64,000 nt of DNA from Paracyclopina nana (Eukaryota; Arthropoda; Copepoda; Cyclopoida; Cyclopettidae). Position 1 is the stretch's first letter. Each line of letters opens with the position of its first letter. The notes below the pieces were generated by a model. That model was not told the origin of the DNA and ran no database searches. It saw only the letters and a program-made list of their open reading frames with translations. Where the stretch lies: contig JAGUCH010000003.1 in NCBI GenBank assembly GCA_019096065.1, forward strand, positions 7,688,001 to 7,752,000, read 5' to 3'. This document shows positions 34,201 through 58,200 of the stretch, piece after piece. A program made the translations under genes and the position numbers.

Positions 34201-37200
34201 CATCCTCCGCACGGACCATGCCGCCCTGCAATGGATTCGCACCATGGAGGAGCCCCGTAGCATGCTTGCCAGGTGGCTGGAGACCATCAGCCAGTTTGAC
34301 TTCAAGGTCGTCCACCGGGCCGGAACCAAGCACGCCAACGCCGACGCCCTGAGTCGCGCCGAGCACGTCACCGACACCGAGGGCACGGACGTGTCCAATG
34401 AGAGCTGCGCGGGCGTCCAAGCGATGATAGCCTCGGCCGAGGCTGCCCTGGACATGGCCAACCCCGCCGAGTGGATCCAGGGGCAAACAGAGGACGAGGA
34501 TTTGCAACTGGTGCGGCGACTGATCAGCCAGCAGAGCCGACCGAGCCCTGAGCACAAAGAGGCCGCCTCCCATCGAGGCAAGATCCTGCTGGGCCTCTTT
34601 GACAGCCTCTACCTGGATGATCAAGGTCTCCTTCGGTACAAGAAGGAAGAAGGACAAGGCCGAGAGGCTCGCCACCTGGTCGTGGTTCCTCGATCCTCGG
34701 AAGAAGGGCTAGTGAGGCACATTCACGAAACCATGGGTCATCAGGGCAGAGACACCACTGTTGACCGGGTCTCCCGCCGGTTCTACATGCCCAACGCCAC
34801 CCGAGTTGCCGCGGAGGTCGTGGCCACCTGCCGCACCTGCCAGAAACATCAGCCGGAGACCGCGGACCAACGTCACTCACTACATTCTCACCGGGCGGGC
34901 TATCCCTGGCAAAGGGTTGCCATCGACTACGTGGGGCCCCTCAAGCCTCCTGTCGACGGACATCAGTACCTCTTCACCGTACGTGACCTCTTCAGCCGAT
35001 GGATCGAGGCTTTCCCATGCGCCTCGGCCAACGCTGACACCGCCGTGAGGTTCCTGACCTCAGAGATCATCCCGCGATATGGGCTAATGGAGAACCTCCA
35101 TTCTGACCGAGGCACCCACTTCACCGCCGCCCTGTTCCAGCAAGTAGCCAAAGCACTAGGTGTCAGGCACTCTACCACGCCGGCCTACAACCCTAAGTCT
35201 AACTGGGTTGAACGGGCCCACCGGGACCTCAACGGCCTCCTGGCCAAACTGGTCTGCGGGCGACCATCCCGCTGGAAGGAAGTACTGCCCGTCGCCCTGT
35301 TTATCATGCGCACCACCAAATGCCGCATGACCGGCTACGCCCCGTATGAATTGCTATTTGGGCGGCCTGCCACCTCGCAACTGGACCTTCTGTTTGGAGA
35401 CCCCCAACCACTTCTGAGAGAGGCCTCTGAGGCCGGGCAAGTTGCCCAGGCCCTCAAGGCTCGAATCCAGGCAGCCCATGAATGGGCCCGAAAGAACATG
35501 GCCACATCGATCCACCGACAAAGGATGGCCTACCACAAGGACAAAACGACGTATGTCCCGGGGCAACAGGTGTGGCTGTACACGCCCACCATGGCCCGCC
35601 ACATCTCCAGGAAGCTCCAAACCTTCTGGTCAGGCCCCTGGACCATACTTAGGAAGGTCAACGACGTGACCTTCGAGATCTTGCCTGACCCCTCATGGAT
35701 TCGAAAGAAGTCCGAGGTCGTCTCGATCGACAGGCTCAAATTGTACCGGGCAACGGCGGAAGATGCCCACGATGGCAATGCCGGCAACCCGCCGCCAGCC
35801 AATGCAGATCTATCCATGCGAGGTGATGAGTTTGCTGAAGATGTTGCGCTCCCTTCCGATGATGAAGGCGACAGTGAGAACAACATCGAGCTCCCAACAA
35901 CCGGCCACGAAACGGTATCAGCACCGTCACCTCGGGAAACACGGTACCGCAAACGTAGGACCCAGGCGGAAATGCTGCAACAAGAAACAGCAGATTTCCT
36001 GGGGGCCGAAGTTGAGGTTGCCCATGGAGCATCATCTCCTGCAACCAGAACCAGATCACGCTCAGGCCAAAAATCAGATCAACCAGACCCAGAGCTACCT
36101 CCGCTGGCACCAATCAATATGCCGCCATACAGACCCCTGGTAGCACAGCCTACGGTCACGATGCCACAATTCAGGCCACTGCCTGAAATGAGCGATTCTG
36201 AGAATGATGATTTTGCTACACCAACAAATTCGAGCAGTGCTTCAAGCACAGAATAACAGACGAATGAGCAGCACAACAAAAAGACGGCCGCAAAATTTTG
36301 GGGGCCCCCCTAAGTATACTTTGAAAATTCTGCGGCTTGAAAGAAAGCGCAATTAATAAAGAAATAATAGCAGCACAAACCGGCAGGTGTACAATAATGA
36401 GGCAGCATGTCAACACGTTTCCTTTACTCTCTTTTCCAGAAGCAATGTACTTCACAATACTGATGACGTTCACACTACTACTCGAGGTGCCAAGCGCACA
36501 ACCCCGGCCTCAACCTGCTCTACAGGAAGGAGGAGACGGACCACCTGAAGACCCGGCTGCCACCTTCACGGTGTTTGACTGCGAGTCACCAAAATCAACC
36601 CACGAGAGCGTCGACTTGAATGACCCGGACGAATGCGATGATATCGGCACCACCTATGAATCGGCTGTCAACATCACCGTGCAGGTGCTGCAGACTGCGA
36701 CGACCAAACCCGTCGCCGCCCACCGTTGCCACGTGACCCTGACCCGCGAAGTGACCAGATGCGGGTTCGACAGCGTCAGCTATGGGACCCAGATCGTTGC
36801 TTACCACCAGCCCTATACCGTGTCGCCCCAGGCCTGCCGCAAGGCGGTGGAACGGGGCTACCTGATCGTCGAGGGCCAACGGGTGAATGTGACCCTCAAC
36901 GTGCCCGCCAACCTGGCTTACTTCTCTCGAGGAGGTCTTGACGGAGACCACCGATGCAGGACCATGTCATTCAGCCACAACGGTGTCATGTATCACCGCT
37001 CTTACGAGCAGACCCGGATCGACGCCCTTGTCACCGCTGTCTATGGAAAACTGCACACCAGCTCTGGACGAGTGGTGTTCGATAATCACATCGTGGCCAA
37101 CTACCGGGACAAGATCGTCCACGACACGCTCGAAGGCACCATGGTATGGGAAGCTCATGACACCACCTGCATGGAAGAGACCTCTGAGGTCTATCAAGGG

Positions 37201-40200
37201 CCCGCTTCGCTATACCCGCACCAGAACTCCACCATGCTAGGTCAGGTGGGGGATCTGCTCCTGATTGCCCGCAAAGAGGAATCCAGGTACGCAGGATTTG
37301 TCCTTAAGGGGGTCCAGTCGACCTGCCAGCGGCGGGTCTTCCGGACTCAGCTGAGGGACTTTGCAGTCGTCCTTCTCCGCCCGGGCGAGGCTCCCATCGC
37401 CGCGTCGACCCACCTGACGGAAGAGGTCCACCACGCTCACGTGCAAACCCAACTGGCTTTCCTGCACGCCAAGCACGCCCTGCATCTCGACGACCGGTTC
37501 AAATTCCTGCAGGACCTCATCTGCAAGAATGAGCGGAGCATCCTGCACACCAAGCTGCAGGACATGGCCAGCGGTGGGTCCTCCTACGCCACGCTTGACT
37601 CCCACGGGCCCGGCCATTTGGTCACCCGGGCTGGGGCGGTCGCCTACATCACCAGCTGCTACCCGATGCAGGCCATGACGCGTGCCTTCCCTAATTGCAC
37701 GCAGGAGATCCCCGTGTTGGTCGGGAACCACTCCCGGTTCGCGGATCCCCTCTCCTTCATCTTGGTGGACCGGCCCAGCATCATACCCTGCGACGCCATC
37801 ACGCCTGTGAAGTGGAGGATCCAGGGACACTGGATGTGTGCTACTCCTAGCATCCACTCCTGCACGCCGCCATCGCAATTGGACCCCACCTCCGATCGAC
37901 AACATGGACGCCCCTACGAGATCGGTCGGGGCCTAGGAGGTGGTATCTACTCCGCCCAGCAGCAGGCCGAGCACGCCCTCTACCTGCAGCTGTACCACGC
38001 GCGCGAGGCCGTGGTCACCACTCTGACGTCCAACGTCCTGAGGAACAGCTTCGCACGCGGATCGGGGGCCACCACCCTCTGGTCCGAGGACGACATCGAC
38101 ATGATGGTTGACCAGGTGGGCAACGCCCTCATCCCCTTCTTTTCGACCGTGGGGAAATACTGGAGCTACATGACCGGAGGTTTGGTGATCCTGGGCCTCA
38201 TCAAGATCATCCTAGGCTCTATCATCCGTATGATCATCCTGTATCGCCGCCGGGGACTGGGGTGGTGGTTGATGTATGGCCTGTGGCACACTGCCTTCAT
38301 GGCTGTCGAACTCCCCTGGCGCATGGTAGCCAACCTGGGTAACGACGGACCCTTGTTCCCTGGCGACGACGATGAGGATGATGGCCACCCGGATTTCCGG
38401 CGCCGACCTCGCTGGAAGCGAGACCACCGAGAACGAGCGGCCACCGAGCTCAGTGACTTCACTGTGCAAGATGGTTCGGAAACGGGAGAGAAAGACCCTT
38501 TGGATGCTCCAGACAAGTCGACATCGCCCCTCAAGGCTCTCCGCCGGTGGACGCGGCCCGACAAGGAGACCCAAGCATATCAGGACCTCCAAGCCCAGAT
38601 CCGTACGATTCACCAGCAATACACGGATCTATACGGGGTCCTTCAGCAGACCCTTCCCCAGGCACGCATGGTTGACGCGAATGGGACCCAGCCCAGCGCT
38701 CCCGCCATGGAGGGTCCCCCTCGAGGCTCCCTGCTAGACCTGACTCAATCCGTCACTGCGAGGACACAGTAACCTTCTAGCGTGGGGTGATGTAGCAGGG
38801 AGCGTGTCGGCCTACGGGTCGACCGCTCGCTGCGCGCGCTCGCCTCGGACGCGCGGTAGTATAACGAGTAGTATAGTGTGATCATCAGTAAAGGAAATAA
38901 ATTCACCGCATTGACACGTGTTGTCTGCGGCCCAAAGACTGACCTCTGCTAGCCTCCAGGCCCGTCCCCGCTTGACGTAGCCTAGATACGAGTAGTGGCT
39001 TGATAAGTCACAGTAGTATATCTCGACCTACTACAGACATTTCAAGCTTTTTGCTACTTGTAAAGTGCATCTTTGTGTTTTTTGCTAGCAAATCTTCTAA
39101 CGTTGGCTCTTAGAAGTAATTGAGTCAACCGGATGCTAAGACGCTTTTAATGGCTCCTGTATTCCCAACTCCATTAGCTTTTTATGTGGATGTAGTGAGT
39201 TTCCACTAAGTTGTGCTCGTGCAATCCGATAAAGTGAATCACTCTTAATCGATCAAAAAGCTTATAGTGGTATTTGTTGCAAGTCACCCAAAAATGCACT
39301 TATTTTTAATGATTTTGGCCATTTAAAACAACAGCCTAGCAGTCCCATGGTAATTCTCTTTTGGTTGTTTTCTGTCAAGCCCAATTATCCATGTCAGCAC
39401 AATCAGGACAAGGCTGATTTCTAGCATTTTTTTTCAGGCTTACTGAGTGACCACAAGATGAGCCTCCAGAACGTGGTGGCCGTTACTTTGCTTCTCAGTG
39501 ATATGGGTGACTTTCTCGCAGTAAATAAGAGTTATGTGACGCATTTCGGTCTCAACCCTCCAATACGTGTGTGCCTCGAGGCTCCTATTATGGAAATGCC
39601 AAAAGTTCTATTGTCTGCAATCGGAAAAGATAACAAAGCATCACCTGGGGAATCGAATACTATGCACGTTCAAAGCATCTCGCACTGGGCGCCAGCCAAT
39701 ATTGGACCATACAGCCAAGCTAAGGTAAAAATTGATAACAGCGTACCATATTGGAGGAAAAATCGGATTCGTGACAATAGAGTGAACGAGCAGAAATGAA
39801 GCAGTGCTTGTTTTTTCGGTTTTCCATTACAAAAGAAGAGCAGTTGTGGAGAAAAAGCCACTTATCCTGGAGAGAGCAAAAACCCTTTCAGCGGTTTTAC
39901 CCACCAATTATAGCAAGGCAAGGCCTAAAAAACCAAAACAGGATCCTGCTTTTATGTTTTATATACTATAATACGATTTCCTCGTGTTATAATTCAGTTT
40001 ACCGATCCGACTCAGCTCTTTTATATCACAGTTCTTTCTGAGCAATTTGGGGGATATTAAATACTTAATGGCCCTGGAATCAAATTTGAGGGATTTTAAG
40101 TAATTTAATGCCCTCATATTCCATGGAACTAATTCAAATTCCAAATAAGTTAGAAAAAGAGAGGATCATCCTAGGTTCGAACCTCTGATTGTTGGATAAT

Positions 40201-43200
40201 CATTCCACTACCCTATCCACTGAGATAAGGAAACATCATGAAAATTACATGCTATGTATAGGACTTAACCATAATTTAAGCAAAATAGAGAAATAAAAAA
40301 AAAAGTTAAGGGATGACTGGGGTTTGAACTCTAGACTCCTAACTCACGAGCCAAGCGCTCTAACCAATGTACCATAGGAGCACCTCTGGAAATATGGTTT
40401 TTAAAAGTCTATTTTATTGCTCCCAAACCACGGGATGCCAGATCATGATACCCAGTAATATTGACATAGAAACTAAAAACCGAGCAGTATCTTCTAGGGC
40501 ACGGGGCAGCCCGGTAACATCATTAAAACACTCAAAAATTGTATTACAGAATATAAAATTGTATATTTTGAGCTGGGGCACGTAAAATCGGGTCATTAAA
40601 TAGCTGACCTCAGATTTTAAAATGGAAAAACACTCGTACAATTACAGCCTACGCAGGCTCAGGCTAGTAAAGCTGTACTCGAGTTTTCCCATTTTAAAAT
40701 CCTCGCTCAGCTATTTAATGACCCTACTTTACGTGCCCCAGCTCGAAATAAATAACTAGAAAATACTTTCTCAAACGAGATGTAAAGCAGCATAGCATAA
40801 GTTTTCCTTGTTTGCTAATGGTCATCGATCAAAGCAAAACTTTTAGCTCCCTTGGGCAAACGTCCCAAGTTAACTGTGTGAAGCCTAATTATAACCATTG
40901 CCAAGATAATACAATCTAGCCCTCGAACTGGTTTGTGTCGACAGCAACTGCTACTGCCTTTTTTCAGATAACAAATATCAATTTCTAGGTCGAAGCTGGT
41001 GTGGCTCACATAGCTGGCCAAATTGGCCTCATTCCTGGATCCATGGAGTTGCCAGACAATGTTGAAGTGCAAGCCTTTCTTGCCATCAGACACCTGATGA
41101 GAATCCTTGATGTTTACGATATGAGAGCAACCAATTTGGTTCAGGTAAATCGTAATTTATGGCAATTTTATGCGCTAGCTTGTTTCTGAGCGATGAAGTA
41201 TTAGTTTGCTTTATCGAGGAAAAAAACCTCTATGTTCTAGCTTTTGAAAAAGTTATTTTGGCTGCTATGATTTTTTGAGTGCTCACATGCAAGAAAAAGT
41301 CTTGCAGCTTAGCTGTAACTATAATGTAAGCCTACATGGTAATTATGATGTAACTTTAGCTTCACAGACTGAAGAGCCGCGTATCATGTTTTTGGGAGAC
41401 AATATTACCTTAAAGCAAACAAGCATATGATGTCAAGCCCATACAGCATATATTAATGTACGAGCCTGGCTAGTGCCTTTTTAGTACGATATGCAAGGGG
41501 AAATGAGAAGATATGATTTAATGCTTGCTATAATACGTTTAGTGGCCAAAAATACCTTTTCTTGCCTTATTTTGGCAGGTGGTCCCAAACACCAAAGTTC
41601 ACGTGGAGTAATGCAATTTTGTAAAGTGGCTGCTACTCGCCCATTTTACAAGTTTTGTTTTTGAAGTAGTTGTCAGAAAGTTGAGCTTAGAACGCACGCG
41701 TGTCGTCTCTTGTAAAAATGGCAAACAACTTCATTTGAGGCAAAGCTTGGTCACTTATGTAATAATTGCACGCGATTAATCAGGACAGATCTCCATTAGT
41801 GTCAAAGTATAATTTACCTGACAAGACCTCCGCTCATTTTACTTCTGAAGACTCAACACTCGTTTCCTTCATTTTCATTTGATTTATGCTCGCTGCATTC
41901 TTTTCCTCCACTCTCCACGTGACAGCATTTTCTCGATCAGGTTTAAAATTGGGAGATTTATGGTAGCTAAGAAATTCAATTACTAAGCCCTGCCATCGTC
42001 ATAGTTTAGAAAATTACTCTAAGCAAACGTTACCGTACATTTTTCTTGTGCTCTCTACTTGAAGTTCCTTTCTTCAATTTTGTCCGAATGTCGTGACTTG
42101 AATGGGGCAATGAAATGCCAAAAATGCTCTTTGACATAGAAAGTTGAAGGAGGTGTCCACTTATATGCCATTTCAGTGCTACGTTTTTGCGAGGCCTTTG
42201 TAAGATGTACTTTTTGTATTTTAAGATGCCTTCCAAATAGGGCTGAAAAATGACGGCAGAAATCCTGTTTTGAAGTAGCAGCTTTCTCTCGTCAGCCTTG
42301 CAAAATCAAATAATGCGTGGTTGACTGGGTATCCAATTTTGCAAATAGTTTAGCGTGTTTTTTCAATAGCATCAGTAGACTGAAGCAATCGCTGTCGTCC
42401 TCAGGATTTGCATTCAAAGCAAAATTGAATTGGGAGCTTTCACAATAAGACTTGCTTGCTCCATATGGAAGGTACATTGCCAAATGGCCAAGCGTGAGCT
42501 CGTTAAAGGTCGGATTTTCGATCGCATGTTGGGAGCCATGAAAGTCTAGTCCATCATGTTCTGCTTTACAAAACGCCGTTTCATTGTCCAATTTTCAACT
42601 TTAAACTAGAGTCTAATTAGTTTGAGTTCAAGTCCCTTCCTGGCTTTGGCAGTTTGATTCCACGCGAAGACACCAAAAAGATTGCTATTCGAATTCTGTA
42701 AACTGTATAGGATTATTGCTCTTTCGGAAAAAGGGAAAGCTCACTTCTATTACAGCATAATTCCGCATTATCACCTGAGTAGTAGTCACTTTTTTCTGAA
42801 GTGTGCTGCGAGAGAGAGAAAGTAAAAAATATATATACCTTAGTTTATTTATTCACATGATAAAGCATAATCCAACTGACGTTCTCCAATAAAGGTGTAA
42901 TAAATATTAACGATGCGCGCGTTGCTTGGCAAAATCAAACTTCCTCCGAGTCCGAGTACTGCTGTAAGCTGCATTGCTTGAAAAACTTTTGTCTGTGATC
43001 GTAGATCGTTCTCCCACTCAGATCTCTCATTTCACAACTTTCACTCAGTTTGGTGAGGGACCTCGTGTCACAGGAAGACCTGCAACGGTCTTCGGAAGTC
43101 ATGACTTGGTGCTTTAGGCTAATATGGCCATGTTTACTCGGCCGACTCGTGATGTCTTCGCTCATTTGTTTATTCATCATTCGAGCTCGTCGTAGCTGCG

Positions 43201-46200
43201 TGGCTGTCATTTTGTGACTACCAAAAGCAGCCAATGGAGGCGGGGGAGCTTTTGTGGAGGTTTCATCCTCATGCAGGATTTGAAGTGAGCAGGGCTGGCT
43301 AAAAAGGGAGCCATGGCCAATCTGAAATGCAATTAAGACCATTACTATCTTGTGTATACATTCTTTTCCTTCAAGGAAAATGCGAGCCTATATGGCTTTC
43401 TGAATAGATGGCTTACTCGCTGCAGACTCGATTGCATAATTGAAATTGCCCCCTTATGTAATTGCCAGCATTTGCATCTAGATGACTAGCTATGGAGAGA
43501 GGTACTATATCTATGCTACAGCATTACTTGAATTAACGCCTTCCATTGAGACAGTTGTAAGCAAACTACTGGTTTTCTTTGGAGGTTGAAAGTTTCCCCA
43601 TACCTGCAAGTGTCTTGTGTGAAAGTTATAAAGAAGCTCCTAGCTGCGAAGGAGGCTCATACAAAAGGAAGAAGGAAAACCACAAAAAATGAGGCTTCTG
43701 CAATATTTGCTTTTAGGCTAGGTAGACATATTGCTATGCTACACTAAGTGAGGAACTGTTGGCTGTGACTTCTACTTCGCTTGAATTTATTATAGGCTCA
43801 TAATGTAAGCAACGTAAGCTGACTATAAAGAAAGAAAGAGCATGCTCGACAATCTATTGCCGAAAAAATCCTCGAATCCAACTTACTTTTGAGGCGTGAA
43901 AGCTTGCCTTGGATGAAATTAGAAAGCTCGATCCCGAACTGGATCTAGAAATTTGCGCTGATGAGTTGTCGTAGTCTTTGATTAAATGTAATTTGAGGTT
44001 GGACCTTTTGCAAGCCTTTTCCAGGTCTGGAGAGACGCATCGCTCAATATGATCGAGATTGGCTCCAAATCTATCAATTTCTGTTGCATTTTGAAGAAGG
44101 ACGGTGTTCTTTTCTCCTCCTGCAGCTCGGGCTATTGAAGCACTCATATTAGGACTTCCTGGGTTGTTGGCATTATTAGCAACAGCTGCGGAATTTGTGC
44201 AACTCTCAGCGCAACTTTTCTTGCGAATGGTCAAGCTCTTGAGCTTTTTTATCTGAAACGGTAAAGGGAGAAGGAATTAAGAATGGTGCTCTTCCGGTGA
44301 CAATAGATTGAACAGCGGTACATAACTCTAAGCGATGTTCAAGTGATAAACAAAAAAGGCCACAGTACGATGCCTTCGCATTTAGCAATACTTCCAACTT
44401 GTTGCTTCAAATGTATTTCTTAATTAACGTATTCTACGATAAGTGACACACTACTACATAATGCCCGTCTACCGTCACCAATAACTAATAAAGCTATTAT
44501 TAAATGTATTCAAGCAAATTTCAGCTGTGTAACAAATACAGTTGTAGTACACTGCAAATACAAACACTCAATGTACATGCAACATTGTCGTGCAATTTTA
44601 AGTATCATCCTTGCAAATAGATCCCATCATGATACCTCAAAATGTTTAGACGATCTCCTTGGTGATTTCATGGCTTGGTTAATGTATCTCAAAACCTGGA
44701 TTAATACCAAAAATTGGTATCAATAAGTTATCTGTTGGGTGGCAAAGCTCCAATAGTCATAGATATGGAACACAGAGTTTAGAAGAAAGAACAATGAGCA
44801 GATCTCTGAGCCTTGCGCTTTAATGTACAGTCCTTCGATAATTGTGCGCTCAGAGTGATTTGTTCAAAAGTATTGTGTATACGGATGGTCAAACTTTCCC
44901 CTCATAAATCGCTGCTAGCCGTAATTGTTTGCCTCCCGGCGAGGTTGTGTGATTCTATCTGGCTGGACTCACTTTTCGATCTGTCATTCGTTTGTTTACT
45001 TTAGTACTTTATCGGATTTTATGCATGGCGGTCGTCAAAATAAACGATCTGACCCAAAGATCCCTTTAGAGTGCTCTTTTATTCGTGCGACGTTTATTTT
45101 TATCAGTTCATCGAGTCGAGATTACAGTGATCAGATTTACATGGCGATCAACGTTATCAGTCCCACACCGCGAGTGATCAAGAGTCAAGCTTATCGAGAA
45201 GCCGGCGGCCATCGGAGTCAGCTGTTGCTGACGAGCTGAAGGAGTTTGCGAACGGGGGGACAATATTGTCCCACGAAGCGCAAACGAGGGGACAGAGGAG
45301 CGGATGTCCAAGGAGACCACCAAAAAGTACGGTCTCAGACACAACCCGATCAGAAATGTAAGGCTGACGTCGGGAGACTACGAACACGAAATAAAAGAAG
45401 CGAGGAGCACATCGACTGTGGCAGACCGAGCTAGCGACATCGAGAGCGCAAGGCAAAATGAAGTCAGCAAGCGAATAGCTGACTTCAAAGCCAGGATTTC
45501 GAGTGATCAGTCAGTCTGCATAGCGGGACACCCGGACATAGTGGAAAATGCAAGCACCAGCGTCCTGGACACGGCAACAACGGAGCTAGATCTCAGATAT
45601 AGCGACTCGACGATGCTTGGTGATGAGACAAACAGTGTGCACATGATGACAGCTGTAGATCCAACACATGCAGGCATGGCTCCATGGAAGGAAGCCTGGG
45701 CTTCAGCAAAAGCGAGCCTCGAAAGTGACATTACGAGGCTTGAGGACAGTCTCAAAGCAGCGACAAAAACTGGAGCGGTTGAGTGCGTCCGCAACGGATT
45801 CAGCAACCTCATTGAAACCCTGAAGAGTGACGCAATTGTGCTGGACTCTCTAGTGACTCAAGGAGACAGGGAGGAATTCGGGGTAGAAATGAGAGCCATG
45901 AATCAAAAGCTTGTGGGGCTAGTGATGAAAGCCAGCGCAAAAGCCAGAAGCATCATGGTCCTGGGAGTCTCATCGGAGGCAGAGGCTTTAGTTGCCGCTG
46001 CCTCCAACAGACCAGAAGAAAAAGTGCAGACGCAACAGTCAACTCAGCCAGCTCAGCAAGAGAATGACACCGAGGAATCGGGAGTGGACCGAGCCATCGC
46101 GTTAAACGGTGAGTTTTTTTCGCTAGTTGCCCAATTAAAGAGTGCTGACAGGGAGCTTAGAAAGCTCAGAGCGGGGTCTATGGAAGCGACCCAGCAAGTC

Positions 46201-49200
46201 AACATGATGAGGACTGTCAACAAGAGAAGAGTGGAAGTTAGTGAGCAACTCATGGCAATGCCAGATAGCGAAGACTTCCCCATTAACAGGCAGTGCATAG
46301 TGATAGGGAACAAGGAAGCTGAGAATATTGTGTCAACATTCCCCACCGGAACAAGAGGGCAAGTAGAGCCACCCCCGCCAACCATGGACGGGGGGACTCA
46401 AGAAAACAACTACGCTCCGAGGATGGAAGAAGACATGAAGATGCTGCAGCTTGGAGTCCCAGCAGTTCACCTGACAGAAGAAAAGTATAAGGAGAAACTG
46501 ACCAAAGAGGAGGAATTTCTGGATCAGCACACAGTCATCGAGCAAGTCAGAAGAAGGAAGACTGCGGATGTGTGCTGGGCGGACATCATGCAAAGAAGAA
46601 ACCTCCACAGATATTATGATCCAAGTCTGCCGAAAGACACCAACTCGAGAGACGACGTGAAACCGATGTTCTTTGATGGGGCGAATACAGGAGCATACAG
46701 AGATTTCAAGGAATACGTGCACGCAGCCATCATCAAGAAAAAGAACATGAGTTGGTTTGAGAAGATTTCCAAGCTCAAATACCTGTGCACAGGAGGAGCT
46801 AAGTTTGCAGTTAGGCGGTGTACTTTGGACTTCGAAGGTTTGGTCAGCGCACTGGAAAATCTAGATGCGACATACCTTGGGCACCCAGGCGAAGCTGAAG
46901 AAATGGTGCATGACTTGTCTGCACAGCTCACGAAAATGATACCAATAAATATGAGAAATCTCGCGACACTGGAAACCACGCTAGCCCTAGTGGAAGAAAT
47001 TATCGATTGCAATGGGCGAGGAGGAAGAGATGCCCTAGACGGCGAACAGTCAATACTGAGCAACATTCAGTTCGAAGTCAATGCCAGAAGGGACTACGAG
47101 AGGTTCAAGGAACAGAAAATGCAATCACGCAACTCGCTGAGGTTGTTCATAACGTGGGCCAGGACTCGAATCAGAGAGATTCAGAGAAGCAGAAAAGTCT
47201 GCACAGTGGTCGAAGATATCAACAAGATGCATGACAGGAACTACCACAGAGGAGGAGGTCAGAACTACGGCCTCGTGCCACCCCCACAAGCGGCAGAGCC
47301 AAGCCAGCCAACCAGAGGCTATAGAGGCGGAGGCTACAGAGGCAGAGCAAGGAGGCCATTCTTTGGAGGCAGAAGAGAGCAATCTTACTATGTGTGGCAA
47401 GATGAGTACCCCACCAGATACGAGGATCCTTATGGTGATGAAGAAGTTTACTGGTGGGACCACAATCAGCCAAGTGCAACGCCTGGAGAACCTCAGTACC
47501 AAGGCTACGAGCAAGAAGTGGTGGCCCACTGCGACAACCAAGGCCGCGGTGGGTGGTATGACTTTGGATGTCAAGACCAAGACGAAGAATGTGTCAACCT
47601 AGTCAGTGGAAAGACCATCTGCCTGTTGTGCAAAAAATCTGGACACAGATGCTGTGAGTGCCCAGAATGGAGTTTGTTCAAGCTTCAAGACATCATTAAG
47701 GTGATTGAGGATGCCAAGATCTGCCCGAGATGTCTCCAAGGAAAGCACACGTTAGCTGACTGCAAGAGACAATCGCATTGCGATGTCTGTGGATCAACAA
47801 GTCACCACACGAAAATCCACAGATCGAAGCCCAAAGAAGAAGAATCCAAGAAGACCGGCAAAGAAGACATGAAGGAGCTTTTGGCATCAATGACTAAACT
47901 AATGACAAAGCTGTCTGAGACAACACTTCTGAGTCAGGACCTTGGTTGTCCTGACAACGGAGATGGAAAGGAAGATGTGATCCTTTTGGCAGCAAATGCA
48001 ACGAGATCCTGGCTCACGGTACCAGTAGAGATCTCAGTTGACGCAATGTTCGAAAAAACAGTCTCAACAAATGCACTGATTGACGCCGGATCGAGTGCAA
48101 CACTGCTGAAGCCTTCGCTAGCAAAAAGCCTCGGCTTTAAGGGTAAAAGAAAGCCTCTCACCGTAAAAGTGGTCGGAGACAAATCGATCACGCAACCATC
48201 CCAAGAGGGCGTCATCTACATCAGAGCCAAGAACGACAAGAACCAGGTGTATGAACTGAAGTTCAGCACGTTCGACTTACCGGTCTCCATTAAGCCGATC
48301 AACCCAAATGAATTCAAAGCCAAGCACTCGGAACTGGAAAAGATTGACTTCCCAGTTCCAGAAGCAGGAGGGGTTGGCCTCCTGATTGGATTCAATAACA
48401 CGATCTTGATGAGTAGCGAACAGGATGTGGTGGTCAAGAATGGACCACTAGCAAGAAAGACACCATTGGGATGGTCAATCTTGAACTACCCAGGATCGAC
48501 AGGAGAAGAGAGTACTCTCCTCGTGGATGACTGGAAAACGTTCAACCAATCAGCAATGACCGAGTCAGAATTCAGATACATGCTTGACAGGCAGTACGGA
48601 CTCGAGTCCATCGGCATCGACAAAAAAGAGGAGCCAATCAAGAGACTGAATTTGGCAGAAGAGATGGCACTAATCAAGATGAAGTCATCGATGAGGCTGT
48701 TGCCCTCAGGTCATGTGGAGGTGGCCATCCCCTTTGTGAAAGACATCCCAGATCTACCGGACAATTTCACCCAGTGCGCAGCCATACAACGCAGCCTCGA
48801 CAAGAAACATGCCGCAGACCCAGGAGTCATGGCAGCAATAGGATCCACGTTTGAAGAATATCTGGCATTAGGCATCATTGAACCAGTGCCAAAGCATGAG
48901 CTGGGAAAAGGCTACTTTCTGCCAGTATTCTGCGTAGCAAGACACACGAGCGAAACCACCAAGTACAGATTCGTGTATAACGCAAAGCAGAAGTTTGATG
49001 GCACCTCTATAAACGAGCAGATGTACACAGGACCCAATTACCTGGAGGACATATTTGACACGATGCTCAAGTTCAGAGTGGGAGACATTGCAGTTGTGGC
49101 CGACATAGAGAAAATGTATCTCATGATAGCCTTGCCGGAAAAGGACAGAAAATACGTGAGGATCATCATCAACGGCAAACAGTACCAATTCTGTAGGTGG

Positions 49201-52200
49201 CCTTTTGGCCTAAGAGCCGCACCATCAGTGGCAAATTTCGTGGTGAAGTCCCATATAAAGGCCAGAGGCTCCAAGCTCCTTCAGGACACTGTTAACATCT
49301 ACATGGACGATGTGATCGTGGCCTTCAAGGCCAAGGACACTGCAAAGAAGGTCATCGAGGAACTTATACCACTAATGAGCGAAATTGGAATGGAGTTAAG
49401 AAAGTTTGTCTCAAATGACAAGGAAGTTCTGGAAAAAGTTCCGGCAGAAAGAAGAGGAAAAGCGATGGTGGTTGAAGAAGAAATGGAGACACGAATTCAC
49501 TCGACACTGGGACTTAAGTGGGACCCAGTCACTGATCGAATCGGGTACCAATTGTCAAAACATAACCAGGATGTAGTGACGAAGCGAATTATGGCAAGCC
49601 AAATACCATCAGTCTTCGACCCATTGGGGGCGCTGGCTCCATGCCTATTGAAAGCAAGGAAAGCGCTGCAGCTCGCACACAAGGCTGACAAAGAGAAAAA
49701 AATCTCGTGGGATGAAGATTTGTCAAAAGTCGATAGCAAGGATGCCAAAGAAGCAGTCAAGTTGTGGAAACAATGGCAAAAGGAGTTCAACCAGATGACG
49801 AGTGTGAGCTATCCCAGGAAAGTAGCAGCAGAGATCAACGAGGATACAATCCTACACATGTGTAGTGACGGATCGGATTTAGCCTTCGCAACAGTCGCTT
49901 ACATTAGTCAAAGAGGAAGCCAGCCACAACCAAGGTGGCTGACCACAAAAGCGAGGATCCAAGGAGTTCGACAGAGATCGATTCCGGAAGTGGAGTTGGC
50001 GGGCACGTTGCTGAGTGCCAGACTGTCCAACAGACTCATCAGACTCTTTGGCATCAAACGAGAAAACGTCTGGTACTGGGTAGACAACAAACCCGTCATT
50101 TACTGGATAAGAAAGCCAGGAGTAGAAAGATGTGTCTTTGTACGCAACAGAGTCATTGAGATTGCGGACACGACCTTGATGGAACACTGGAATCATATAG
50201 CTACAGCTGAGAACTCAGCCGACCTTCCAACGAGAGGCTGCACTGGAGACCAGCTGAAGGATCACAAGAATTACTGGGAGGGACCAGAATTCTTCAAAGA
50301 AGCGCAAGACCAGTGGAAGCTCACGGACATAAAAGTCCTAGAAGAAGAACTGCTAGGGTCAGGTGAGATCACATTGCTTGGCGAGGACCTTGGTTGTCCC
50401 CGCAAAATAGCGGTGAATCAGCTGGCCATGATCCAACCTCATGAAGTTGTCGAAGGCGGCATGAATGCTGTCCAGGGGAGCCATGTAGTGTTCCAACAAA
50501 TGAAGAAGATCGTGAGCCTCCGGATGGCAAGCAGGTGGTCAACAATGATTAGAGCCATGGCAAGGATTGTCGCGAAGAGCAGGAAATTGGGAGTGGAATT
50601 TGTGATTCCGGAGGAGATTCTGTCAGAAGTTGTGAGAAGAGTGCTAATCTACGCACAGTGGCTCAAGTGGGAGAAAGAAATCCTACACTTCGAAAAAACA
50701 GGAAAATGGAAGATGACATTGCAAGACAAGCACACGCTGATGATGGATAGTGACGGCCTGCTAAGGATTTGCACGAGATTGTACAAGCAGGACTTGGCAG
50801 GATCAAGAATCAATCCAGTACTGATGGCAGACACCTGGCCATTCACACTATATGTGTGGAGTGTGCATCTCCTGGAAAATCACATAAGGTATGACAATCT
50901 TTGGCACAGAGTGTCGAAGGAGATTGCAGGCCCTGGAGTGAAGAAGGCAGCATACAAGGTGTCAAGGGAGTGCAGCAGGTGTACAAGGAATCACGCGAAG
51001 ATGCCAAAACAATTGATGGGCGGAATCTCGAAAGTAGATCTGACCAACCTGAGACCATGCGCGAAAATAGCGCTGGATTATACGGGTGCACAATGGGTCA
51101 AGTTCAGGCGTAAAAGAATCCCAGTGTACGTGCTAGTGGCTGTGTGCCTGAGCACAAAGGTAGTAACCTTGGAAATCACGATGGGAATGAACACAGAGGA
51201 CCTAATTTTAGCATTGACGAGGATTGCGGCAAGAAGAGGTCCAATTGAGGAGGCATTCTCAGACAATGGAGGGAGCTTCAAAATGGCAAAGAGGTTGCTC
51301 GAAAAAGAAGTCAAGCCACAAGACTTGAAGCACGAAGTGGAGCAGATTGACTGGGAAAAGCTCCAGATGCAAACAGCAAAATATGTGCGAAAGTGGACTC
51401 TGTCGCCCCCAAGAGACCACGAAGCAAATGGACAAATTGAGTCGTTTGTGAAATTGGCGAAGAATGCAATTCAAGACAATGTGGACAGAGGTGAAGTGGA
51501 CCTCGAAGTGTACAGAACCTGGGTCGCGCAAGCAGAGAATGTCGTTAACTCAAGACCTATAGCCGTGATCAAACAAGACAACGACGAAAAGCTGGTTTTA
51601 ACACCCAACCACCTTTTAGTTGGGAGGTTGGGTGACGCGGGAATTTTCTCCCAAGATCATGAACTTGGATTTAGTGTACACGAATTGGCCGAAAGAATGG
51701 CCAAATTCGAGAAGAGCTGGTGTGATTACTTTTTACAGAGCATGCACGATAGGTGCAAATTCAAGACGAAGTACAACGCAAAAATTAAAGAGGGCGACTT
51801 GGTTGTGGTGGCTGAAGAAGACCTCAATGTCAAAAGACATCAGTGGAAGCTAGCAAAGGTGCTAAAAGTGCAAAGAAGTGCTGATGGATTGGTGAGACGA
51901 GTAATTGTGCAACAGAAGAAGAGTGTGTTCGAGAGAGGAATCAGAGACGTGATTCCAGTAGCGGAATTTCCGCACATTGATTTAGCCTAAAAAAAAAAAA
52001 AAAAGTGATAGCACAACTCGTCGACACCAAGAAAAAGACTTTACACCACAGAGAAGAAAGTGAAACAGAAAAAGACTGGAAAACATCTGGTAGCGCTGTC
52101 ATAACATGAAGTGTCTGGTAGCGCTGACCAACAGTGAAGCTGAGCGGCGGCTCAGCAAGAAGCGCGCCAATAATAATAAAAGTGCGCCGAATTTTCTCGT

Positions 52201-55200
52201 CAAAACACAACAGTGCAAAAAAGTGAAAATGGCGGACAAGAAAAGATCCGGCAGCAGTGGCGAGGACGACGAAAGGAAGAAGAGGAGAGTCTCCACGAAC
52301 CCTGGTTGTTCGAGGGACTCTTCAGAGGACTTGAGGATCACCATCGCAAATACCGGAGAGGAACCCAGCGAGACGAAGCCGAAACATGGAATGGCCGCTT
52401 TCACGTCGGAGCGCCAAATTGATCACGCGGCGGAAATCATGCGAGCTACGGGATTTCGACGGCTTCATTGGTACACCAACAACGATGTCAGCAGAAGAGA
52501 CGCCTTTTTTGAGGTCTTTAAGGACCCAGAAATTCTGCTCATCGGCGACCAGTACAACTGGGGCGAGAAGTTGCCAGACGATTCGAGGCCGGCCGAAAGA
52601 AGGAGGAAAATGCGACGCATGGACGAGTGGAGAGCTTATAGAGCGCTTATCTGTCGCTCCAGAGGTATGTCGCTCATGGAAACGTACATGTTCTCTTACG
52701 GCAATCAGTTCGTGGACATCATGCGGATGTACAAGGAGCAGCCCGACCCGGAGCTGGAGGAGCTGCCCGACAAGGCGACGATGACCAGATGTTGGATGGC
52801 GGCGAGAGCTCTCGGCCAGTACATCAAAGACTCGATGTCGGATCCAGCATGGGAAAAAGGAGTCCTCCAGGCAATGGAAGCTGGAATGGGCATGCACGTT
52901 GTACCGAAAATGTACAAGTTGTACAAGGAGGGCGATGTAGCGGACGTCATCATGATCGACCAAATGAGAACGAGTCTGTCAATCGACGAAATGGAGCAAC
53001 TCTCCGTCTTCAAAAAGCTGCCAATAGTCACAAGAGAACACAACGACCAATTTGTGAAGGCCTTGAAGGACACGCTGGAAGCGATCAACGCACCGGCGCT
53101 GGAAGTTCGAATGAAAGTTGTCCATCATAAGCGATGTCAAACCGAGGCCGACCCTGAAATGAGCGGGGTTGCACCCCATCAAGGCCAGGACCTTGGTTGT
53201 CCTGGCCCCAGTGGAGTTCAACCCGGAATGGACAAAAATAGACGAGTTGTCCTGGAAGATGTCGATGTGGACATGGAGGCAGCCCCAGCGAAGGTGGAGC
53301 TAATCTCAGTCGCTTGTCAGGCAGCAGGAGTGGCAGAGCTCATCACAATTGCTTGTCAGACAGAAGAAAGGACGGAGGCCGCGCCCAGGCCAACGACGTC
53401 CACGCCAGTGGTCATCCCGGCTGGAATGGAGGATGAAATCATGGCTGACTTTCGAGGCTCCCAGCTGAAGGACGTCTCCAAGCTGAGTACGTCAGTCACG
53501 CCCATGGACGAAGACGAGAAATATTTGCGCAAGTATACGAAGACTTATGAATGCCCGGAGCTGGAGGCCGGCAAAGTTTATGATATGACGAGTGAGCAAG
53601 AGCGGAAGTGTCATCACTTGGGTTGTGCCATCCGGAGGGAATTTGACCTGGTGGAAACCACGGACAAGTCCATGACGGTGGCCTTGGTTGTCACCGTCAA
53701 GGAGGCTCGTCGATTGGCATCCATGGCAAAAGGCACACCATATGACTTGGAATCACCTAAGATTCGATCGGTGTATATTTATGGTCTAACTAAAAAAGAC
53801 AATATGTACTCTTCTAATAGTTTTCCAGAGATAGAGCATGCCCTGGAGCTGGAAGAATTTTTCGAGTGCATTGAGAAAGCAAGAATGATGACGGTCGACT
53901 GTGAAGGCTTCCATCAATCGCACAAGGTTGCGTACGCCAAGAAGTTTCCCCCCACGGTGGACGAGTTCAACAACATGACGTCGTATGTGCACATGGGAGC
54001 CCCAAATGGCATCGCATTTGGCACGCGAGTGGGCTTCGTGGGCCCAACTTTTGTCGGCCGAAAGCTGCCTCAGCGAATTGTCGACCTGCTTGAGTCCAGA
54101 AGCGTGTTCAAGCTGGGCTTTGGAGTGGATGGAGACTTGAAGAGATTTCAGCTGATGGGGATCAACGTTCGATCTTGGGTTGATGTCGGTCACATCATCA
54201 AGCTGTTGAGGCCGTCCGCCAATGTCGGCAAAGAGGAGATGCTCAGGTTGCTCGGGGTTCAACACTCAGTGCGCTTCCCAAAATGGGCGCGCGAAAACCC
54301 ATATGGCGGATTCGTGGATGAATACTCTGACTCAACAATCTACTACGATAGAATTGATCAGTTTGCCCCGATGGCGGGAGTGTTCAAAGCTGCCTGCCGT
54401 GTGGCTGAGTGCGAGGGGCTGCAAGATGGCGACAACTTGTACCCGTACGTGTTGGCATTGCTGGCCCTCTACGAAAACGTGCCCCTGAAGTTTGGCACGC
54501 AGCCTCGAGTGGAGTTTCGAGGCCTGTTGGACGAGCCCGAAGTGCCCCTAGACGTGCTGAGAGTCGAGTCGAGACTGTTCAACTCGCGGGAGCATGTGAT
54601 GAAGAAGTTGAGGAGTCTGGAGCTCCTTTGGCCGATCTCGAGAAGTTTTTTTCCTCACTTGTCCAATTCGGCAGTTCAGTCCTTGGAGAGCGACCTTGAA
54701 GCGTCCTTGGTTGACCTTCATAGGGCCGCTGTCATGGATGGGGCTGTTGGACGAGTGACTACGACGGCCAAGAAGAACCGCAAGATCATCAAGTACCCTC
54801 ACGCGTGCCTCATTTGTGGCGAGTTTGAGCACGACGCATCTGACTGCTTGGAGCTACCTACGTGCACGCTCCCATACTGTGGCCGGGATGGCCACGCGTC
54901 AAAAGTGTGCCCACAAGTGTTAGAAAGGTGCATGAGCTGTGGAGGGCGCGGTCACAATGCTGGCCACCACCAGGACCATGATCTGGTCCAGCTCTTCGCG
55001 GGCGAGCGCGTCGCCCCATTCGTGCATGTGATGGCTGTCCGGCAGATGGACAGGAACGGCAAAATTCTGGTGATTCAACGATATGGCGCGATCAAGCCTC
55101 TGAGAAGGTTCGAGTAGTCTGGTCCACCTGATAGACTCCCAGAGGGGACTGTTTGCCTCCCGGCGAGGTTGTGTGATTCTATCTGGCTGGACTCACTTTT

Positions 55201-58200
55201 CGATCTGTCATTCGTTTGTTTACTTTAGTACTTTATCGGATTTTATGCATGGCGGTCGTCAAAATAAACGATCTGACCCAAAGATCCCTTTAGAGTGCTC
55301 TTTTATTCGTGCGACGTTTATTTTTATCAGTTCATCGAGTCGAGATTACAGTGATCAGATTTACAGTAATTAAAAGCAAGGTCAACTTTGCACGTTGCCA
55401 GAAATTACCAGACAGCCATTTATAGGAGGAAGTTCGCATCGTTTACTCATAATGGTAGAATTAATTCCAATCATTCAACTGAAGAAGGAAAATCTCAAAT
55501 CAGCAGCAGATGAAGCAAGGGCCTGGGTTAGTAATTTTACAGAATGAAAAAAAATCTCACTGCCAAAGTGTGGAGCAAAGTTGTGTGCGTGTGTGGCAAT
55601 ATTGAGGCCTCTTACCTGTATCCGCTCAATCACCCAGTTGACGAGAAGATCCCATCCTTGAGGGCCTTGGATGGAGGCTTCGGAAAAGTTCAAAGTTTTT
55701 TGCCACACTAAATAGAGTCTGTAGAAGGAGTAGAGCCACAGCAGCAGCACCAAAATCACTAGGATCAGCTCGCAGATTCCACTGTCATGAATTGGCACCA
55801 CTGGCACTGAGTAGGGGCTCTGAGGGTACTGATGGCCTGGCTGAAGGTAGGGACCGTGAATGCCTTCGGGGCCCATCTGCAAATGCGGCTGCATTTATAT
55901 GCGAAATGTTAAGTATGTAATCTACTCTGCTGTATCCAGATCCCCTGTGACTGACGATTACAGGAGCACGCACCACACAAATAGTAAATTAATCGCATGC
56001 TTCTACTTCATCATCACGTAAGGTTTCTTCCTTGCTGAGCTGCGTAGACCTCGAATTGAAAACAGCAGCCATATATGTCTGCATGTGCTCACTGAGCTGA
56101 GCTAATATATTGGCAAAAACTAGTTTTACCAGGCTAGTTATTTTTGGTACTTTTTGGTTGAGATAGCTGCTGTGTGCAGTTTCCTGGTCAATTAATCTTG
56201 AGGAGGAATGTTTTCCTTTCAGCTTAGCCTCACCGGAGGTTTGTTAAGCATCAAAGTGCCACAGCTTACTCGTGTTCTATCCTGTTTGGCTCGTGGCATA
56301 AAAGTTACATTATTCTGTTACACTTCAGTTAAACGCAGAATTGGCCGGGTCACAAAATTGTTTCAATTACCATATGCTGTGGAAAGTAGTGGTGCGGATA
56401 TGCATTGAAAGATTCGGGTTCTCCGGCTAGGACCAAGTTTTCAGGGGCGTGGCCCTCATCCACTCCTGTGGGAGGTGTCATTGTTTCGTGGCCACTCCCC
56501 TCACTTGCAATTGGCCATGGTTGGGCAGTGTGGTAGAAAAACTCGCGTGTTTTCGGGTTGAAATACCTTATCTGAAATAATCGACCGTTTATCGAAAAGG
56601 GAATTTTCTTGGCGCGGGACACTCAATTTGTGTACCTGGTTTACTAGATCACATTTACAGGGTGGATAGTAGAAAGCTCCTGGAAACTGCTGAGGTATCA
56701 AAACTCGAACGCCCCCGTTGTGATAAGTGGGCGTGGCCTTGGAGCTGCTGATCACAGATTCGGCTAGGTTTGCTGTGGTTGGCGCTGGTGCATCCGACAT
56801 GATAGCCTACTAAAATTTAGAGCAGTTGAACATGTAAATTGCGAGTGTAATTTGTCTAATGCAGATCATTTCAAGCCAACTGCAGTTGTTGGTAATTTGG
56901 TGCTTATTTGGAAAGTCCTAGATCGGATTACACACAAAATTGATTGCACTACTAGAATGCCACTTTAATGGTAATTGTGTGGGCGCTAGTTAGCCTTGTA
57001 TGACAGAAACGTAGTGCAGTGTGCTAAAAGTATTTAGGGAAAGCAGTTTAAAAGGCAGATAAGGGAAAGCTTTTTTAGGCCAGATACCTTGCATGCTGAA
57101 ATAATTTGCACACGCGAATCGTAAGCCTATTTCAAGAGAGTAGCATCATCAGCAACTCTTAAAATATCTTCCCTGGGATTAGCAAATAGTTTTTTACCAC
57201 TGTACGCCGGTTCTGGACGCACACTCTCAAAGGTAATAGTTAAAAATGAACGAGCTGTTTATTTAGCTAACAACGTTCTCTAGAGGTCTGGCAATTTCGA
57301 CTTGGAGCATACAAAGTACATGAAACGTCAAGTTCTTGCGAAATTCAATTTCCTTCCATCTTTACTTTCCCTGGTTACTTTCACTGTGCTGTATTGCATA
57401 AAAAGCATAAATCGGTGAATTGCGCCTTAAATTTTAAGACCCTCTCTTGGAGGGATTTCGTTTCGTGCTCGTGATAAAATTGGCTGCTCTGATTCATGAG
57501 AGCCACTCTCAGATTTTTTAAAAGCCTTTTTGATAATGCGCACTTTAAAAAATGAAAGCCTAGCTTCATTGTTGCTGTTACCTTTGAGCATTTAGAAAAT
57601 TAGCCGGATCTTCCTCACAATATGTGGTACCAAGGCTGATCAGATCAAATTGTGGCAACCAATTTCCAAAGTTTGCTCAAGTTAGCAATTGAGTTTGTAG
57701 TTGTTTTCTAAATTCATTTGATGCTTAGAATTGACACCTGATTTGATGCCAACCTGATTGAATGTTCACGTGGCTCTCAAGGGATCTCTTGATACACTGT
57801 TGTAAATTGCTTTCGCGCATTTCCCTTTTGTTGCCAGATCATTTCCTCAATATGGCTATGACAGTAGTATTGACTCACGCGTGTAATAAAAATGCTCTGC
57901 TGTTTCGCGTACAGTTCTCGTTTTGTGACTGAAAGGCAGCCGCGGAGAGCTCTCTTCGTTTTTGTTGCAATGAAATAAAACGAGGTGGAGGTGGGAGGGC
58001 GATCTCCTCTGTGCACGGTGGGATCCTGAGCTGGCTTATGTAGTTCGTATTTCCATTTACACAAAAGCTATTGTTCACCTTTAGCACTTATCATCAACGA
58101 ACCTTTCGTTATTATGCATTCTTCAGAGAAAATCCATACATGCAGGAATCTTTCTTGAAAGTACAACTTTTCTTTTCTATATAATGAATTTCCATTGTGC

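Follow-up and report, generated by a model that had tools for sequence, protein, structure and literature searches.

Dispersed hairpins with a common seven-nucleotide loop in the coding sequence of a BEL/Pao-type retroelement of Paracyclopina nana

Dispersed packaging signals have been described for single-stranded RNA (ssRNA) viruses (PMC6281560), as have the -RGAG- loops of hepatitis B virus (PMC7612645), and packaging and kissing-loop dimerisation structures are known from Ty1, Ty3 and retroviruses (PMC4974528, PMC5454406, PMC11381356). Here a set of 11 hairpins is reported from a BEL/Pao-type long terminal repeat (LTR) element of Paracyclopina nana, in a window of 64,000 nucleotides (nt) of contig JAGUCH010000003.1 (C3:7688001-7752000 of the genome searched). 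As in the ssRNA viruses, many stem-loops with a common loop motif and free stem sequence lie along the genome, with the fold kept at three of the four comparable sites in both diverged relatives read and at the fourth in one. Unlike those signals, the hairpins belong to an LTR retroelement, are inverted in four of the 11 cases and carry loops of 7 nt whose positions 1 and 4 are complementary. The locus resembles the Ty1, Ty3 and retroviral systems in placing hairpins in the RNA of an LTR element and in its scope for loop-loop contacts and for recognition of nucleic acid by Gag; unlike Ty1, whose packaging and dimerisation structures are at the RNA 5′ terminus, the motif is repeated along 7.7 kb and in both open reading frames (ORFs).

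With the BEL/Pao elements (PMC3118150, and in part general knowledge of the family) the element shares a reverse transcriptase (RT), Peptidase_A17, LTRs and a target-site duplication; it differs in the hairpin set and in having a second ORF, whose motifs are exonuclease-like and knuckle-like. The main text of that survey contains no occurrence of hairpin, stem-loop, packaging or exonuclease. A literature search over open-licence titles and abstract starts, among the matches listed, returned no such hairpin set in BEL/Pao elements, which is weak evidence of absence; among the papers listed for packaging in Bel-Pao elements, none contains the word Bel-Pao.

Family members were defined by a 7-nt loop YNTRGTT on a stem with at least 8 of 10 positions paired, on either strand. 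The element, its ORFs and the hairpins, with the loop positions by which they are named, were as follows.

44926-55365, plus strand: BEL/Pao-type LTR element, 10.4 kb, two ORFs between the LTRs
45304..51990, plus strand: ORF1, 2228 amino acids (aa), Gag-Pol-like, matching RVT_1 (RT), Peptidase_A17 and DUF5641
52106..55117, plus strand: ORF2, 1003 aa, with a weakly EXD2-like region and C-terminal Cys/His knuckle-like motifs
45977..46003, plus strand: hairpin, loop TTTAGTT at 45987, 9/10 paired, overlooked by the first-pass annotation
46370..46396, minus strand: hairpin, loop CATGGTT at 46380, 9/10 paired, 12.7 bits with a model built from eight members
47526..47552, minus strand: hairpin, loop CTTGGTT at 47536, 9/10 paired
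47931..47957, plus strand: hairpin, loop CTTGGTT at 47941, 8 contiguous Watson-Crick pairs
49554..49580, minus strand: hairpin, loop CCTGGTT at 49564, 8/10 paired
49918..49944, minus strand: hairpin, loop CTTGGTT at 49928, 10/10 paired, 2 of them G.T
50379..50405, plus strand: hairpin, loop CTTGGTT at 50389, 8/10 paired with mismatches, 4 contiguous pairs
51605..51631, plus strand: hairpin, loop TTTAGTT at 51615, 9/10 paired, also overlooked earlier
52291..52317, plus strand: hairpin, loop CCTGGTT at 52301, 8/10 paired
53182..53208, plus strand: hairpin, loop CTTGGTT at 53192, 9 contiguous Watson-Crick pairs, peptide GQDLGCPGP
53673..53699, plus strand: hairpin, loop CTTGGTT at 53683, 10/10 paired
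54692..54726, plus strand: possible degenerate member, CTTGGTT at 54706, 3 pairs, a bulge and 5 pairs, outside the 11

The first-pass annotation had reported six copies of CTTGGTT in the element, and these were found on the plus strand between the LTRs at 47941, 50389, 51798, 53192, 53683 and 54706. Five had been described as tip loops; strong stems were present at 47941, 53192 and 53683 and, with mismatches, at 50389, but the stem at 54706 was weaker and bulged (13.5 bits with the eight-member model). The sixth, 51798, has 0 contiguous stem pairs on the plus strand and forms no hairpin. The complement AACCAAG had been given as the loop of two further stems, and both sites are strong hairpins on the minus strand. 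At 49928, 7 contiguous pairs were read on the plus strand and 10 on the minus strand; at 47536 the minus strand gives 10 pairs with 1 mismatch, but the plus strand has 1 contiguous pair with a 7-nt loop, though it too folds with an 11-nt loop. The three sites proposed with one loop mismatch (46380, 49564 and 52301) all belong to the family. Nine of the ten sites named originally are thus among the 11, to which the two strong TTTAGTT hairpins are added. Seven of the 11 carry the motif on the plus strand (45987, 47941, 50389, 51615, 52301, 53192 and 53683) and four only on the minus strand (46380, 47536, 49564 and 49928). The hairpins are spread along 7.7 kb within both ORFs, in all three codon phases and on both strands. 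When the loop strand of eight sites was folded as RNA, the z-scores ranged from −1.06 to −5.70.

Within the window, the association of this loop with strong stems is confined to the element. On its two strands YNTRGTT occurs 21 times, and at 11 of these sites the loop sits on a stem in which 8 or more of the 10 positions pair, a level reached by 175 of 20,814 centres × strands across the element as a whole; in the rest of the window none of 90 YNTRGTT sites has such a stem, the best being two with 7. A first count with the narrower loop YTTRGTT had placed 8 of 11 element sites on stems of at least 7 pairs, against 0 of 26 outside; five of those eight stems contained one mismatch.

Two shuffle tests were applied. 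In the stricter one, 7-nt loops YTTRGTT or the complement with a stem score of at least 7 on either strand were counted in 200 dinucleotide and 200 synonymous shuffles: 8 were observed, all dinucleotide shuffles gave 0 and the synonymous shuffles at most 2. For the motif of the first-pass annotation the same test gave 6 hairpins of the CTTGGTT class against at most 1 in shuffles, and across all 400 shuffles not one 7-nt loop, whatever its sequence, was seen more than twice in the same shuffle. In the wider test, 11 hairpins with YNTRGTT were observed and 2000 synonymous shuffles gave at most 4; this loop was picked after the data had been seen, which inflates the wider test somewhat, whereas the motif of the first-pass annotation passed the stricter test with no such choice involved. 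When the loop codons were frozen, 2000 synonymous shuffles gave a mean of about 3.3 and a maximum of 7, despite 34 loop sites on average. Chance and codon usage were rejected by both tests, and the refuting outcome named at the outset, shuffled sequences with as many stem-capped loops, did not occur with dinucleotide or synonymous shuffles.

A combination of peptide or codon constraint with chance is refuted as the sole cause by these maxima of 7 (loops frozen) and 4 (loops free), and we give it hardly any credence. In its favour, three sites (47941, 50389 and 53192) encode DLGCP in one shared phase; the earlier statement that codon phase differs among copies holds in so far as all three phases occur, but not for these three. 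The peptides are SQDLGCPDN at 47941, upstream of the protease-like domain, and GEDLGCPRK at 50389, between the RNase H region and the integrase. DLGCP with an upstream TLLx(Q/E) recurs at 47938-47952 and 50386-50400, the Gag/protease and RNase H/integrase borders of ORF1, which from domain positions and peptide may be protease cleavage sites; peptide constraint may therefore contribute at 47941 and 50389. Freezing the loop codons also raises the shuffle mean, as given above. Against such an explanation, the hairpins occupy all phases and both strands, and the outer stems at 50389 remain paired although they encode different peptides in the three copies compared below.

Generic richness in hairpins was considered and rejected as well: the element has 34 positions of hairpins with a 7-nt loop, somewhat above the shuffle means of 28.1 (dinucleotide) and 23.4 (synonymous). 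Among other loops of 4-12 nt in the element none recurs more than twice; GTAC, GAAC, CAGA and AGAATCACACA occur twice each. AACTAAA is the family's own loop, and the loops of 9 and 11 nt that recur belong to these family sites too, read with a longer loop. No Rfam match at the gathering threshold was obtained in the window.

Copies of the element were sought in the genome (92 Mb, 10 contigs). There were 62 ORF2 matches (46 of 250 candidates scored), spread over nine of the ten contigs, among them the one that holds the window. By ORF2 protein identity two copies are 99-100% identical, eight about 66-78%, and further groups lie at 38-41% and about 30%. DNA was compared for one of the two close copies, in pieces (L004-L006), and for parts of two diverged copies (L007 and L008), the latter about 76% identical to the window. 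The close copy at C4:4.53M has 170 differences in 8266 aligned positions, 2 of them in the 243 nt of the nine hairpins covered: the first changes a T-A pair to T.G on the loop strand, and the second creates a pair; its counterpart of 52301 scores 12.7 bits. The core GGACCTTGGTTGTCC (a 15-mer) has 22 exact matches in the genome, against 0 for the same core read backwards, and by their coordinates all 22 fall in the 11 closest family members at three homologous sites (47941, 6 copies; 50389, 10; 53192, 6). In the copy at C7:2.06M the distance from GGACCTTGGTTGTCC to ORF2 is about 0.2 kb shorter. The absence of GGACCTTGGTTGTCC elsewhere says little, a 15-mer being rare; its persistence at 66-78% protein identity is more telling. 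Beyond this genome, no relative was confirmed in the viral contig collection, and the protein collection gave no ORF2 homologue among 7999 candidates scored; for the RT, 24 of the 7993 candidates scored were relatives, at 26-31% identity.

Conservation of the fold was assessed by an unselected ranking. L007 and L008 were aligned to the window, and for each 7-nt centre × strand in 48910-51868 the paired stem positions were summed over the three copies, blind to loop sequence, with ties broken by double (compensated) changes counted per pair of copies. Over 5872 centres × strands the mean was 10.8 of 30 (standard deviation 3.85), and the four family sites were all in the top eight: 51615 (plus) was first with 27, 49564 (minus) second with 26 and 49928 (minus) eighth with 23, 50389 being fourth on the opposite strand (25) and seventh on the loop strand (23). 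The fifth row, 49606 (minus, 25), is outside the family and has no double change. The CTTGGTT at 51798, invariant in the three copies and stemless, ranked 1868 and is a useful internal negative control.

Double changes per copy pair numbered 2 at 51615 (plus), 4 at 49564 (minus), 3 at 50389 (plus) and 2 at 49928 (minus), 6.7% of all rows reaching 2; stem positions altered on both sides and yet paired numbered one at 51615, two at 49564 and three at 50389. At 51615 a C-G pair has become T-A in L007 through two synonymous changes. The outer stem at 50389 reads GCG/CGC in the window, GTGC/GCAC in L008 and GGTC/GACC past a one-base bulge in L007, and is paired in each. At 49564 the pair next to the loop is T-A in the window, T.G on the loop strand in the C4 copy and C-G in L008, and in L007 the loop is CTTGGTT on a stem of 10/10. 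Orientation is the same in three copies at 49564, 50389 and 51615 and in two at 49928. The comparison of homologous copies that had been proposed as a check thus gave compensated stem changes at three of the four comparable sites; at the fourth, 49928, the hairpin persists in L008 but not in L007. As the stems at three of four sites keep their fold while the letters change, the hairpins probably have a job. Confidence that they are real and conserved is high.

Paired stems could also be kept up by mutation, one arm being copied from the other through self-priming or template switching in reverse transcription or replication; stems would then stay paired without selection, loops favouring fold-back would persist, and loop inversion would yield both orientations. 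Template-switch hairpins (PMC8794818) are like those described here in their compensated stems, CTTG loops and possible loop inversion: the process can create and maintain hairpins with compensated changes, and rarely inverts loops, and CTTG loops are enriched among its instantaneous compensatory changes, as 6 of the 11 loops here begin with CTTG. They are unlike ours in that the process alone would predict no common loop at unrelated sites; it leaves one heptaloop at 11 unrelated places unaccounted for, and does not explain the constant orientation in three copies at 49564, 50389 and 51615 and in two at 49928. L007 and L008 are unlike each other in both arms of 49564, whereas a single copying event alters one arm. 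Template switching should reach other hairpins too, whereas compensated changes made up 1 of 108 changed pair-cells in 17 non-family hairpins and 1 of 7 in two family hairpins, which are small numbers. We hold mutational upkeep in place of function to be rather unlikely.

Across the 11 hairpins of the window at least three pair types occur at every stem position, and 89.3% of the cells are paired, against 53.9% with the 3′ letters shuffled; as the 11 rows were chosen for pairing, stem diversity is the informative part of this comparison. In agreement with the earlier description, the hairpins are dispersed and are not copies of one palindrome. The same diversity stands against tiny palindromic insertions (selfish hairpins) spreading within the element family, to which the presence of both orientations and the inner stem common to the three DLGCP sites would be congenial. 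Where a relative has a weak hairpin or none, its alignment continues across the site with a shift of at most 1 nt, and no insertion is seen at 49564 or 49928; such an origin is very improbable.

Loop positions 1 and 4 are complementary in 11 of 11 hairpins (9 C..G, 2 T..A) and in 6 of 10 non-hairpin sites (Fisher p = 0.035); T3, G5, T6 and T7 were fixed by the search pattern, so that their constancy carries no weight of its own. If positions 1 and 4 paired, a turn of two bases would remain, as in CUUG tetraloops. CUUG has been described as stable in both RNA and DNA (PMC8794818). Kissing between loops, proposed at the outset, would have the plus-strand YNTRGTT loops pair with complementary loops of inverted sites and so fold or dimerise the genomic RNA. 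Perfect complements do exist for CTTGGTT (AACCAAG) and for the CCTGGTT of 52301 (AACCAGG at 49564), but the 11 include neither an AACTAAA loop to partner the two TTTAGTT hairpins nor a CATGGTT loop to match the plus-strand AACCATG of 46380. Loop-loop complementarity also needs no pairing of positions 1 and 4 with each other. We regard kissing as distinctly unlikely to account for the family.

The reading preferred here is that at least 11 cis-acting, dispersed hairpins serve as putative protein-recognition sites on single-stranded nucleic acid of the element; we judge the whole of it about as likely to hold as to fail, and confidence in the proposed role of the hairpins is moderate at best. 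Each hairpin consists of a stem of free sequence and a heptaloop Y-N-T-R-G-T-T with complementary positions 1 and 4, and selection would preserve fold and loop within protein-coding sequence. A protein would read the loop when the RNA or complementary DNA (cDNA) of the element is single-stranded, the most likely candidate being the element's own zinc-knuckle protein, either the nucleocapsid (NC) part of Gag or the knuckle/exonuclease-like ORF2 product. Many weak sites would mark the nucleic acid of the element for particle assembly or for handling in reverse transcription. Since four of the 11 hairpins display the motif on the minus strand alone, the proposal takes in recognition on both cDNA strands and is not restricted to genomic RNA.

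The four minus-only sites would not be expected from packaging of genomic RNA alone, and they make cDNA recognition a serious alternative; packaging or assembly marks are the nearest precedent. In its orientation-blind form, YNTRGTT loops on both strands would be bound on single-stranded DNA in reverse transcription, perhaps by the ORF2 protein, and would act as a self-recognition signal written in synonymous or tolerated coding changes, not on RNA; we hold this form to be improbable, though not negligible.

Several observations weigh against recognition of the hairpins by a protein as set out above. The inverted sites are awkward for a signal in genomic RNA only, and the frozen-loop mean indicates that peptide alone favours some stems. 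The diverged comparison covers two of the eight diverged relatives over 3 kb. Within it, 49564 has two central mismatches in two of the three copies (window and L008); 49928, with 23 of 30, ties with at least eight other rows by pairing alone (rows 7-15 at least), has 8/10 pairs in L008 and no hairpin in L007, and shows no compensated change between window and L008, both double changes involving L007. A control on hairpins chosen in the window separated the family weakly, with 33 of 38 pair-cells kept (2 hairpins) against 205 of 286 in others (17 hairpins); it was superseded by the unselected three-copy ranking. As to the folded strand, 50389 pairs better on the opposite strand in that ranking, and 47536 folds slightly better on the plus strand (−18.0 against −16.1 kcal/mol). 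Wobble pairs read on the loop strand number 5 G.T against 1 A.C at minus sites and 3 against 3 at plus sites, a weak signal; the counts lean to the loop strand as the folded strand, and the numbers are small.

The first-pass observation itself stands, and is stronger than first stated.

The termini and target-site duplication of the element were as follows.

44921-44925: target-site duplication GTAAT, 5 bp, flanking the 5′ LTR, with a second copy beyond the 3′ LTR
44926..45141, plus strand: 5′ LTR, 216 bp, identical to 55150-55365
55150..55365, plus strand: 3′ LTR, 216 bp, with GTAAT directly after

The LTR termini are TG...CA. By its domain matches ORF1 is a BEL/Pao Gag-Pol, the Pao RT with Peptidase_A17, the LTRs and the target-site duplication all being present; its aspartic protease and integrase core matches are weak and below curated cut-offs. 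ORF2 had no Pfam match at E 0.001. Its residues from about 560 to 800 weakly resemble 3′-5′ exonucleases, and the only PDB match of this domain is EXD2 (E = 0.042 for the domain alone and 0.27 for the whole protein, both short of the usual level of significance). Inspection of the translations by eye shows that the element encodes two sets of knuckle-like Cys/His motifs, one of them C-terminal in ORF2. ORF3s encoding DEDDy exonucleases have been reported for LTR elements of bdelloid rotifers (PMC5408684).

The window also holds two near-identical LTR elements, 8121-17362 (minus) and 29796-39037 (plus), in opposite orientation about 12 kb apart, with matched arms 98-100% identical. The former combines a gag ORF of PNMA-like type with Gypsy-type RT/RNase H/integrase; it also carries an env-like ORF, which matches the fusion glycoprotein family of Monjiviricetes (E = 9.4e-55). 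In the Gypsy-type element 29796-39037 the loop AGCAG caps three hairpins, probably by chance. An inverted repeat at 40559-40755 has 82-nt arms, 84% complementary, and a 33-nt spacer.

To our knowledge, little is known of how LTR retrotransposons outside yeast and the retroviruses recognise their own nucleic acid. The heptaloop described here, repeated 11 times, short and well defined, is a ready test substrate, and its inverted copies ask directly whether RNA or cDNA is the form read out. The hairpins suggest that the coding sequence of a mobile element may carry a second, structural code, one that can be detected in a single sequence and checked in its copies.

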